Assembly: GCF_000938305.1 (NCBI RefSeq)
Contig: NZ_JYMT01000003.1
Span: 62,001 to 126,000, forward strand
DNA from: Bradyrhizobium sp. LTSP885
GTDB taxonomy: Bacteria > Pseudomonadota > Alphaproteobacteria > Rhizobiales > Xanthobacteraceae
Length of the DNA: 64,000 bases
Reading direction: 5' to 3'
Positions 13,778 through 64,000 of this stretch are shown one piece after another. Every line of letters begins with the position of its first letter. Position 1 is the first letter of the stretch. The position numbers were made by a program, and so were the translations under genes. The notes under the pieces are model-generated. The model was not told the origin of the DNA, searched no databases, and saw only the letters and a list, made by a program, of their open reading frames with translations.

Positions 13778-13908
13778 GTCGTCCCGGACAAGCGAAGCGC
13801 GATCCGGGACCCATAACCACAGGGCGTGGTGATGGAGCAAGCTGGGGCCACAGCGTTGTTCAACAATGCAGTCCTGTGGTTATGGGTCCCGGCTTTCGCC
13901 GGGACGAC
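13778..13908. repeat. Inverted pair of the GTCGTCCCGG...CCATAACCAC palindrome (empty form)
   Basis: Left copy 13778-13820 reads GTCGTCCCGG... and ends GGGACCCATAACCAC; it carries a longer internal loop. Right copy 13876-13908 is the 33-bp inverted form, GTGGTTATGGGTCCCGG...GGGACGAC. They enclose 55 bp without a gene. This is the same family that flanks the GIY-YIG gene near 63 kb. It sits within the ssu operon between the binding-protein and permease genes. Confidence 0.85.
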
Positions 13909-31932: not shown

Positions 31933-32054
31933 GTCGTCCCGGCGTAGGCCGGGACCCATAACCACAAATGCAGATTGTCTTGCAACGCTGGAACGACGAG
32001 TTCCGCCTACAACATCCGCTGCGGCGTATGGGTCCCGGCCTTCGCCGGGACGAC
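31933..32054. repeat. Inverted pair of the GTCGTCCCGG...CCATAACCAC palindrome (empty form)
   Basis: Left copy 31933-31965 is canonical (33 bp). Right copy 32021-32054 is the inverted form with a GCGGCGTATGGG tail in place of GTGGTTATGGG. They enclose 55 bp and no gene. Confidence 0.83.
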
Positions 32055-36984: not shown

Positions 36985-37113
36985 GTCGTCCCGGCGAAGG
37001 CCGGGACCCATAACGACCGAACGTTGTTGGAGAAGAAAGGTAACGCCGCTTGTGCCCTTTCCACGGGCCGCGGCGTATGGGTCCCGGGTCGCGCTTCGCT
37101 TGCCCGGGACGAC
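36985..37113. repeat. Inverted pair of the GTCGTCCCGG...CCCATAAC palindrome (empty form)
   Basis: Left copy 36985-37017 (tail CCCATAACGACC). Right copy about 37070-37113 has a CGGCGTATGGG tail and a longer internal loop (GTCGCGCTTCGCTTGC). About 52 bp lie between, without a gene. Confidence 0.8.
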
Positions 37114-47844: not shown

Positions 47845-47964
47845 GTCGTCCCGGCGGAAGGCCGGGACCCATACGCCGCGGCTTTTCAATGAGGCGATCT
47901 GGCAGACGCCTCGTTCAAACAACGATCATCGGTGGTTATGGGTCCCGGCCTTCGCCGGGACGAC
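47845..47964. repeat. Inverted pair of the GTCGTCCCGG...GGGACCCATA palindrome (empty form)
   Basis: Left copy 47845-47882 with a CCCATACGCCGCGGC tail. Right copy 47932-47964 is the canonical inverted 33-mer. About 49 bp lie between and contain no gene. Confidence 0.83.
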
Positions 47965-62124: not shown

Positions 62125-62895
62125 ATGGCCATGCAGACAAGTCTTTCCAATTCCTCCGCCAATTCCTCGGCCAGCTCGGTCGATCCGGCCGAAATCGCGA
62201 AATTCTCGAAACTGTCGGACGAGTGGTGGGATCCGCGCGGCAAGATGGCGCCGCTGCACAAGATCAATCCGCTGCGGCTGACCTATATCCGCGATGCCGC
62301 CTGCCGCAAGTTCGAGCGCAACGCCAAGAGCCTGAGCTGCCTGTCGGGTTTGCGCATACTCGACATCGGCTGCGGCGCCGGGCTGTTGTGCGAACCGTTC
62401 ACGCGGTTAGGGGCCCAGGTGATCGGAATCGATCCCTCCGTCAGCAACATCGCCGCAGCGAAACTGCATGCCGACAAGGGGCATCTGTCGATCGACTACC
62501 GCTGCACGACGCTGGAAGAGATGGACGTGCGCGAGCGCTTCGACATCGTGCTGGCGATGGAGGTGGTCGAGCACGTCGTCGACGTCGGCGCCTTCCTCAA
62601 GCGCTGCGCGGCGATGCTCAAGCCCGGCGGGCTGATGGTGGTCTCGACGCTGAACCGCAACTGGAAAAGCTTTGCGCTGGCGATCGTCGGCGCCGAATAT
62701 GTGCTGCGCTGGCTGCCCCGCGGCACCCATGAGTGGAGCAAGTTCGTCACCCCCGCCGAGCTCGAGCGCTATCTCGCCGATGTCAGCCTGACCATCACCG
62801 AGCAGGCCGGCGTGGTCTACAATCCGCTCGCCGACAAATGGAGCATCTCGTCCGACATGGACGTGAATTACATGGTGGTGGCGGAGGACGTGTAA
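62125..62895 (+). CDS. ubiG: Ubiquinone biosynthesis O-methyltransferase UbiG
   Basis: Carries out the O-methylation steps of ubiquinone synthesis. 256 residues. SAM motif I is LRILDIGCGAGLLCEPFTRLG, followed by ASVIGIDPS-like AQVIGIDPSVSNI. DEWWDPRGKMAPLHKINPLR at the N-terminus is diagnostic of UbiG, and GTHEWSKFVTPAEL near the C-terminus supports it. ATG 62125 is used; ATG 62131 is close. The Ser/Asn-rich first 20 residues are probably disordered. It is probably cotranscribed with the PH-domain gene. Confidence 0.94.
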   Translation: MAMQTSLSNSSANSSASSVDPAEIAKFSKLSDEWWDPRGKMAPLHKINPLRLTYIRDAACRKFERNAKSLSCLSGLRILDIGCGAGLLCEPFTRLGAQVIGIDPSVSNIAAAKLHADKGHLSIDYRCTTLEEMDVRERFDIVLAMEVVEHVVDVGAFLKRCAAMLKPGGLMVVSTLNRNWKSFALAIVGAEYVLRWLPRGTHEWSKFVTPAELERYLADVSLTITEQAGVVYNPLADKWSISSDMDVNYMVVAEDV

Positions 62896-62928: not shown

Positions 62929-62961
62929 GTCGTCCCTGCGAAAGCAGGGACCCATAACCAC
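62929..62961. repeat. Left inverted repeat flanking the GIY-YIG gene
   Basis: 33-bp palindromic element: hairpin GTCCCTGC-GAAA-GCAGGGAC preceded by GTC and followed by the tail CCATAACCAC. Compared with the inverted copy at 63304-63336 it differs at a single position. Confidence 0.9.
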
Positions 62962-62997
62962 CGGCCCATGTGATTGGGCAAGGTCCGCGTTCCGAGC

Positions 62998-63279
62998 ATG
63001 TATTACGTCTACATCCTCGCAAGCCGGCGCCATGGCACGCTATATATCGGCGTGACGAATTCCGTGCAGAAGAGGCTTGAGCAGCACAAGGCCGGCAAAG
63101 GTTCGTCATTTGTCAAAACCTACAGCGTCTATCGTCTCGTGCATGTAGAATCATATCAGCGCGCCGATGAAGCCATCGCGCGCGAGAAGCAGCTCACGAA
63201 GTGGAAGCGTGACTGGAAGATCGAATTGATCGAGCGCGATAATCCAGAGTGGCGTGATCTCAGCGATCTGCTTGTCTAG
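62998..63279 (+). CDS. GIY-YIG nuclease superfamily protein within a palindrome-flanked element
   Basis: A 93-residue, single-domain GIY-YIG endonuclease-like protein. The signature is YYVYILASRRHGTLYIGVTNSV (the GIY and YIG strands read as YVY and YIG). Next come the Arg of KRLEQHKAGKGSSF, the catalytic Glu candidate in DEAIAREKQLTKWKRDWK, and a basic C-terminus. It belongs to the short UPF0213/YhbQ-like group, which lacks a DNA-binding domain. ATG 62998 was chosen; an open TTG at 62974 would extend it by 8 residues. It sits 36 bp inside the left and 24 bp inside the right repeat copy, all within a 408-bp unit downstream of ubiG. Confidence 0.88.
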   Translation: MYYVYILASRRHGTLYIGVTNSVQKRLEQHKAGKGSSFVKTYSVYRLVHVESYQRADEAIAREKQLTKWKRDWKIELIERDNPEWRDLSDLLV

Positions 63280-63303
63280 CCAGCCCGCCACAAACCACTC
63301 CCT

Positions 63304-63336
63304 GTGGTTATGGGTCCCTGCGTTCGCAGGGACGAC
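63304..63336. repeat. Right inverted repeat flanking the GIY-YIG gene
   Basis: 33-bp inverted copy of 62929-62961 (GTGGTTATGGGTCCCTGCG and the complementary end), 32 of 33 positions identical. The CCCTGCG core of both flanking copies is a variant shared by the two and differs from the CCCGGCG core at the empty loci. Confidence 0.9.
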
Positions 63337-63448: not shown

Positions 63449-64000
63449 ATGCTCACGATCGCCTCGCTCTGGATTCCCTTCACTATCGTTGCCGCGTTCG
63501 GGCAGGTGGCGCGCAATGCGATGCAGCGGTCGCTAACGGGGCCGCTCGGGACCTGGGGCGCGACCAACATCCGTTTCCTGTTCGGTCTGCCGTTCGCGGT
63601 GGTGTTCTTCGCGCTTGCCGTGATCGCCACCGGCGATCACGTGCCGTGGCCGTCACAGTCGTTCTGGCCGTGGCTCGTGCTCGGCGCACTGAGCCAGATC
63701 GTCGGCACCGGGTTCATGTTGCTGGCGATGAACGACCGCTCCTTCGTGGTGACCACGGCCTACATGAAGACCGAGGCGATCCAGACCGCGATCTTCGGTT
63801 TCATCTTCCTTGGCGATCACCTGACCACGGCCAAGGTGATCGCGATCGTGATCGCAACCGTCGGCGTCGTCGTCACGGCGCTGCGGCCCGGCGGCAATAA
63901 AAGCTACGCCGATTTGCGCCCGACGGTGCTCGGCCTCGGCGCCGCCGCGGTGTTCGCGCTGTCGGCGGTGAGTTTCCGTGGCGCGATCATTGCCGTGCCT
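63449..64000 (+). CDS. EamA/DMT family transporter, cut by the window end
   Basis: The first 184 residues of an inner-membrane transporter, continuing beyond the window. Translation starts MLTIASLWIPFTIVAAFGQV with further hydrophobic segments (FLFGLPFAVVFFALAVIA, LVLGALSQIVGTGFMLLAM, VIAIVIATVGVVVTAL) and the EAIQTAIFGFIFLGDH motif typical of the EamA repeat end. A third EamA-type gene in the window. The substrate is unknown. Confidence 0.78.
   Translation, partial: MLTIASLWIPFTIVAAFGQVARNAMQRSLTGPLGTWGATNIRFLFGLPFAVVFFALAVIATGDHVPWPSQSFWPWLVLGALSQIVGTGFMLLAMNDRSFVVTTAYMKTEAIQTAIFGFIFLGDHLTTAKVIAIVIATVGVVVTALRPGGNKSYADLRPTVLGLGAAAVFALSAVSFRGAIIAVP

Follow-up and report, generated by a model that had tools for sequence, protein, structure and literature searches.

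The 408-bp Unit and Its Surroundings

The stretch of DNA analyzed here (the window) comprises 64,000 nucleotides of Bradyrhizobium sp. LTSP885, whose genome of 7.85 Mb is assembled in 43 contigs. Near its end, two 33-bp inverted copies, 62929-62961 (+) and 63304-63336 (-), are identical at 32 of 33 positions and bound a unit of 408 bp, and the ATG frame between them (62998-63279, +) encodes a protein of 93 aa. A first-pass annotation had described a 93-codon GIY-YIG gene enclosed in this way, with a hairpin of 8-bp stem and tail in each copy, and both descriptions were borne out, the first by re-measurement and the second by DNA folding. Folded as single-stranded DNA, each copy forms an 8-bp stem with a 4-nt loop, with GTC 5' of the stem and a 10-nt tail 3' of it, and none of 200 shuffles was as stable as the copies (-9.4 and -8.4 kcal/mol). 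The GTC tag is on the outside of the unit and the tail, CCATAACCAC, is directed toward the gene. The unit lies 3' of a gene that we take to be a ubiG-like methyltransferase gene (62125..62895, +) and is followed by a presumably transporter-like gene (63449..64000, +) that continues past the end of the window.

These hairpins resemble a repeat class that has been surveyed before. Di Nocera (2013; PMC3733652) has described CGTC-tagged REPs as having a CGTC or TGTC tag, a stem of 8–9 bp, a loop of 4–5 nt, and a CCA tail. They are mostly found as dimers, and Bradyrhizobium and the neisserial dRS3 repeats are named there; the superfamily (CGTC-1 to CGTC-4) includes dRS3 and the rickettsial RPE-4 and RPE-6 (PMC3733652). 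The copies in the window start with CGTC and TGTC, their stem and loop are within these limits, and the tail CCATAACCAC carries the CCA, so that by sequence the flanking hairpins of the unit are CGTC-tagged REPs. The parts of the unit and the other REP pairs of the window are as follows.

62929..62961 (+): left CGTC-tagged REP hairpin, GTC outward, CCATAACCAC inward (repeat comparison, DNA fold)
62962..62997 (+): left inner arm (5' leader); the arm of the related L229 unit also occurs in a gene-less doublet there
62998..63279 (+): 93-aa GIY-YIG nuclease gene (Pfam, alignment, structure model)
63280..63303 (+): right inner arm; resembles the right inner arm of same-site gene-less doublets in relatives
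63304..63336 (-): right CGTC-tagged REP hairpin, inverted copy (repeat comparison, DNA fold)
31933..32054: gene-less REP doublet (31933/32022), clean, tags outward; candidate non-autonomous unit
47845..47964: gene-less REP doublet (47845/47932), one extra base in the left copy
36985..37103: gene-less REP doublet (36985/37076), right copy clearly degenerate
13788..13908: gene-less REP doublet (13788/13876), left copy clearly degenerate

Four other canonical pairs had been claimed for the window; four pairs do exist, but only one is clean, one has an extra base and two are degenerate. Likewise, the motif CCCTGCG had been said to be absent from the empty copies, which is true within the window but not beyond it, where many empty doublets of the genome carry it; as a mark of the gene-bearing pair CCCTGCG is therefore ruled out at genome scale. 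The hairpin core, GTCCCNGCGNANGCNGGGACCCATA, occurs 124 times in the 7.85-Mb genome versus 0 for the reversed control, and is found away from the gene as well, so the hairpin is not exclusive to the GIY-YIG unit. Among the places listed, 21 inverted (+ -) pairs are spaced 86–93 bp; apart from the gene-bearing pair, whose copies are 377 bp apart, no + - pair under 1 kb exceeds this spacing. Many of the listed copies are single, although the exact pattern would miss degenerate partners. The genome has four GIY-YIG paralogues in four hairpin variants. Type-2 hairpins number exactly two, both flanking the type-2 gene, and type-3 ends number five, two of them at the type-3 gene. The fourth paralogue (L004:1501-1722) is truncated at its N-terminus, with the upstream repeat in the place of the missing part, and is probably a decaying copy.

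The Enzyme

GIY-YIG domains hydrolyse DNA, and we know of no strand transfer by any of them. The Pfam GIY-YIG domain (PF01541) covers residues 1–75 of the 93-aa protein (E 5e-17); GIY-YIG and T5orf172 were the only Pfam matches, and an NCBIfam profile search at E 0.01 gave no match. In an alignment of 24 diverse family members Y5, Y16, G18, R26, H30, E63, and N82 are invariant. With the domain and these residues, to which catalytic roles are ascribed, the protein falls in the GIY-YIG nuclease superfamily. The structure model (pLDDT 89.5) is a bare GIY-YIG domain. Foldseek matched it to UPF0213 protein 1zg2 as the sole match below E 0.001 (E 4e-4) and to Slx1 at rank 2 (E 0.014), and the best solved matches to the protein are the UPF0213 proteins BH0048 and EF2693. 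A review counts Escherichia coli YhbQ and Bacillus subtilis YazA among the structure-selective nucleases of the Slx1 family (PMC7017083).

To judge from substitution rates, the gene is under purifying selection, with a dN/dS of about 0.08 (median 0.078, range 0.03–0.17, 218 pairs with dS of 0.1–1.5 among 28 orthologues). Thirty site-1 loci were chosen for this estimate, leaving out L074, L076, L079, L080, and L104, and two of the 30 were dropped as broken by an internal stop.

Association of the Gene Family with Inverted REPs

Close homologues from named genomes numbered 51, and 50 of them had the core no more than 400 bp away on either side; the sole exception (L056) stops at a contig edge. 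Two further tests were applied to wider sets. The inverted-repeat test, which is ignorant of the REP sequence, takes the best inverted match between the 250 bp upstream and the 250 bp downstream at a score of at least 15; the frame test requires GTC, a stem of at least 7 of 8 pairs and CCA on both sides, with the tags outward. Among the matches listed at E<1e-20 in an even sample of the alphaproteobacterial class, 137 were not from the source genome; 109 of these, mostly the top ones, were fetched and 107 scored, as the flank was shorter than 120 bp in two (and likewise in one of 51 Bradyrhizobium-type loci). The inverted-repeat test was passed by all four paralogues of the source genome, 49 of 50 loci from Bradyrhizobium and allies, 24 of 29 other named loci, and 71 of 108 units of the class sample. 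The annotation had asked if homologues are flanked more often than random genes, and they are: 70 of 107 class units without the own locus (51 of 73 genomes, 40 of 53 families) passed versus 7 of 918 ORFs taken as controls from the loci analysed and 10 of 1164 random placements, while 37 of the 107 failed. The frame test gave 3 of 4, 44 of 50, 13 of 29, and 41 of 108 for the same sets versus 2 of 918 ORFs, and four scrambled tag pairs were found on both sides in none of the sets. Chance or background REP density behind the pairing of gene and hairpin is ruled out by both tests against these controls. A gene flanked by its own inverted REPs, the arrangement known from the REPtrons of REP-RAYT systems, is thus what the GIY-YIG units present. 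The listed flanks contain many unrelated stem sequences, and the frame of GTC, stem, loop, stem, and CCA with outward tags is kept despite the differing stems. Three control ORFs (L084:1567-3280, L080:10045-11008, and L099:10555-11278) themselves lie between strong inverted repeats.

The family and the REPs also go together in numbers. Among the matches listed, 82 of 289 alphaproteobacterial class genomes carry the family at E<1e-20, and at least eight copies of GTCRTYCC..GGRAYCCA were counted in 41 of these 82 versus 11 of 207 others (p 3e-17); here as below, the Fisher and Wilcoxon tests ignore relatedness, shared ancestry being handled only by the even sampling of families. Outside the class, in the phylum sample, at least five copies of a fixed pattern were present in 15 of 30 family genomes versus 15 of 183 other genomes (p 2e-7); these counts were tallied by hand, and the reversed control pattern matched nowhere there. 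Genomes with a member of the GIY-YIG family are enriched in REPs. Thirty-one family genomes (among the matches listed) have fewer than three copies of GTCRTYCC..GGRAYCCA, which is expected in part because the stems vary. Conversely, 18 class genomes have at least five REPs and no family member among the matches listed, with 110 REPs in G277. The REP-rich genomes without a detected member among the matches listed include G277, G268, G175, G105, and G236; they may have lost the enzyme, have an assembly gap, or use another enzyme, and draft genomes can hide genes. A search of two G277 stretches (L293, L294) for GIY-YIG gave no match.

Specificity of the Hairpins

The first-pass annotation had also raised the question of whether flank variant and nuclease lineage co-vary. 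Within genomes the flank variant is mostly specific to the unit: among 59 units, from 22 genomes in which two or more were scored, 46 have left and right flanks that resemble each other more closely than anything around the other units (Wilcoxon p 1.7e-10 for own-flank versus other-unit matching, relatedness ignored). Between genomes the one case tested, that of the type-2 hairpin, follows the rule with exceptions. At least ten type-2 hairpins were found in 6 of 7 genus genomes with a type-2 gene at the site versus 1 of 29 others (p 2.4e-5), carriage being read directly in 30 of the 36 genomes and judged from match extent in the other six. Counter to a simple rule, the source genome has a type-2 gene yet only its two type-2 hairpins. 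In G291 and G292, type-2 hairpins number 69 and 90, but other variants flank the gene at the type-2 site. G305 has 45 and lacks the gene at the site, with a diverged partial match at a distance of about 1.2 kb. The two flanks at the type-2 site belong to the same variant in L295, L297, and L301 and to different ones in L298.

A second pairing was met among weakly matching GIY-YIG genes, which had been chosen as a negative control. None of the 19 scored had GTC..CCA hairpins on both sides, and 6 of the 19 lie between inverted copies of a CATCCTGAG..CTCGAAGGA-type repeat. Sister-family loci with CATCCTGAG..CTCGAAGGA palindromes are L361, L364, L367, L369, L371, L359, and L411. At least five copies of TCCTGAGCNNGTCGAAGGA were found in 5 of 28 genomes with only weak GIY-YIG genes versus 1 of 179 without any match (p 1.8e-4), and four of the 82 family genomes (G012, G032, G056, and G208) also have TCCTGAGCNNGTCGAAGGA repeats. 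In G056, a + - pair of the second repeat 334 bp apart, picked for its spacing, encloses a gene of the weak family (E 3.7e-14); two other stretches examined along with it, which are not pairs of that kind, had no GIY-YIG match. A sister GIY-YIG family thus appears to be paired with a second palindrome class.

Distribution Across Bacteria

The pairing recurs in Aeromonas, Neisseria (dRS3), Bacteroidota, Cyanobacteria, and candidate-phylum bacteria. Outside the Alphaproteobacteria, 8 of 16 units of the phylum sample passed the inverted-repeat test. A first, more strictly scored scan of the named loci showed clear pairs, with scores of 29, 27, 17, and 15 for Flavobacteriaceae or their kin (L091, L095, L092, and L112), 17 for Moranbacteria L110, and 16 for Microgenomates L100. 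In the same scan Wolfebacteria L099 had the frame on both sides but a score of 9, and Dehalococcoidales L108 scored 14 with tags inward. A plasmid collection contained 33 records with the family, of which 10 were fetched, and 7 of the 10 loci passed the inverted-repeat test: Aeromonas L258, Sinorhizobium L261, Novosphingobium L263, Sphingobium L264, and L255, L256, and L259. Spirosoma L260 of this collection scored 14, and no flanking repeat was detected by the test at Photobacterium L257 and Rhizobium tumorigenes L262. In a viral collection (39 loci, 36 entered, 35 scored), 30 of 35 contigs passed, although some of them may be host DNA.

The surroundings of several of these members were recorded. 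The Neisseria gonorrhoeae member (L255:2501-2755) sits among dRS3-type (CGTC-1) copies in a record that is labelled as a plasmid yet is chromosome-sized at 2.17 Mb. The Planktothrix member (L259:2492-2776) lies between a gene for a type IIL restriction enzyme and the DISARM gene drmA. The Azospirillum unit (L256:2489-2782) lies between sufB and sufC of the suf operon with REP doublets on both sides. A Sphingomonas member (L087:6001-6279) adjoins ubiG and lysC, as in Bradyrhizobium, which may reflect an ancient location or a preferred site.

States of the ubiG Site

In 54 Bradyrhizobium genomes the ubiG site had no REP found in 21, a single REP in 8, a doublet in 8, and a gene unit in 17. A tree of the site, built from 54 of 58 loci as four were without the downstream gene, needs 11 changes of gene state, at least eight of them forced by well-supported branches, with gains not distinguishable from losses. 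Units are inverted at the same place in L062, L078, L079, and L237, and stand in arrays with doublets in L229 and L231. In addition, L276 and L282 have at this site a long palindrome whose REP arms lie around a GCGCAATTGCGC centre; it may be a doublet that has collapsed.

The annotation had proposed that the empty pairs are non-autonomous derivatives, and one relative supports this. The 408-bp unit of L229 has a 149-bp doublet next to it that aligns to the unit's first 66 bp and to roughly its last 50 bp and lacks the gene; judged from this alignment, the doublet derives from the unit by internal deletion. Gene-less derivatives that share both ends with the autonomous unit, as in MITE-type elements, are seen in this one clear case. 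The clearest filled and unfilled pair is L291 and L284, which differ by one REP-GIY unit between direct REPs, a difference that fits deletion by REP/REP recombination equally well. The existence of empty orthologous sites in relatives had been asked about too; neither the ubiG site nor the L002 site, whose flanks are too diverged, yielded a clean pre-insertion site with a target duplication, and no near-identical pair of filled and empty sites came to light.

Interpretation and Relation to Known Systems

The reading we prefer, at a probability of roughly 0.6, is that the 408-bp unit is a minimal autonomous REP-nuclease element with inverted CGTC-tagged REP ends, analogous to REP/RAYT with an unrelated enzyme. 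The 93-aa GIY-YIG enzyme is a strong candidate for the spreader of CGTC-tagged REPs; that it cuts and spreads the hairpins is what we infer, and the overall reading of gene and palindromes as a mobilising pair is partly supported. The enzyme would recognise its own hairpin when this is extruded in single-stranded or cruciform DNA and would nick it near the base of the stem, between the GTC tag and the CCA tail. Host replication or repair would then finish the copying of the unit, and gene-less doublets may be copied in trans by the same route. This scheme is likened to that proposed for REPINs and RAYTs (PMC3116915), with a hydrolytic enzyme replacing the transposase. The wider generalization, that small GIY-YIG nucleases are dedicated mobilisers of CGTC REPs across phyla and that different GIY-YIG families go with different palindrome classes, could as easily be wrong as right.

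The main alternative is repair-driven homing into existing REPs, in which the enzyme breaks REPs and homologous repair from one REP to another is the only way for the unit to be copied in, converting REPs already present without insertion at REP-free sites. GIY-YIG domains were first discovered in homing endonucleases (PMC1564403), and homing would suit the single-unit difference between L291 and L284, the same-site inverted units, the doublet arrays, and the one variant on both type-2-site flanks in L295, L297, and L301, though not L298. It is nevertheless unlikely, since 21 of the 54 ubiG sites have no REP found and since the dispersed doublets of the source genome (21 pairs among the places listed) must once have entered REP-free DNA. 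Domestication, that is, an Slx1-like host nuclease that processes REP cruciforms or hairpins at replication and is sited at REPs for autoregulation, without spreading them, would account for the strong purifying selection, the weak fold similarity to Slx1, and the constant location in many Bradyrhizobium genomes. We hold it to be improbable in view of the repeated gain or loss at the ubiG site, the several diverged paralogues per genome that mostly each have their own hairpin, the Azospirillum copy inside an operon, and the 18 REP-bearing class genomes without a family member among the matches listed. That the REPs act as terminators or stabilise mRNA, or owe their movement to some other enzyme, e.g., a RAYT, with the gene as a passenger, is very hard to credit when only 7 of 918 control ORFs are flanked, hairpins are unit-specific in 46 of 59 units and the tyrosine transposase genes of many CGTC-positive species are, according to the survey, never CGTC-flanked, even though most REPs are downstream of coding regions (PMC3733652) and REP-rich genomes without the enzyme exist.

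The preferred reading, a REP-nuclease element, has likenesses to several known systems. The flanking hairpins fit the CGTC-tagged REPs in tag, stem, loop, and tail, and some of the copies in the genome form dimers (PMC3733652). In that survey, CGTC REPs were apparently without a dedicated transposase and no enzyme was associated with them (PMC3733652); the present analysis links a gene family to them. The survey's count of intragenic REPs omitted those in hypothetical proteins of less than 120 aa (PMC3733652), and short genes could thereby have escaped notice. REP/REPIN-RAYT (TnpA-REP) systems, the subject of PMC3116915 and PMC2817692, share high-copy palindromic REPs with inverted doublets as the apparent unit and an enzyme gene beside its own REPs. 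In contrast to them, the enzyme here is a GIY-YIG nuclease by Pfam and Foldseek and not a Y1/HUH tyrosine transposase, the tag is CGTC or TGTC with a CCA tail and not GTAG, and the gene has about 93 codons. The UPF0213/YhbQ/YazA small GIY-YIG proteins are alike in size and fold, and no association of theirs with repeats was found among the matches listed in the openly licensed PMC literature. We know of no link between Slx1 and mobile elements. Slx1 shares the GIY-YIG fold (Foldseek rank 2, E only 0.014) but is eukaryotic and has a partner, Slx4, and a further C-terminal domain (PMC7017083). Homing endonucleases of the I-TevI type share the GIY-YIG catalytic domain, and their spread by host repair is a possible mechanism here; unlike them, the unit has no intron, no separate DNA-binding domain in its 93 aa, and dispersed hairpin repeats in place of one homing site. 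A report tying GIY-YIG to REPs was not found among the matches listed in the openly licensed PMC literature.

If the wider generalization is true, these units would form a class of mobile elements separate from RAYTs: a single hydrolytic nuclease of about 90 residues would cut hairpins and so spread them, while the host did the joining. If cutting is confirmed, the 408-bp unit would be, to our knowledge, among the smallest autonomous elements, and hairpin mobilisation would have evolved on at least two occasions, each from a different and unrelated nuclease fold. CGTC REPs, dRS3 of Neisseria among them, are small repeats of wide distribution, and a specific candidate enzyme makes the question of their missing transposase experimentally testable.
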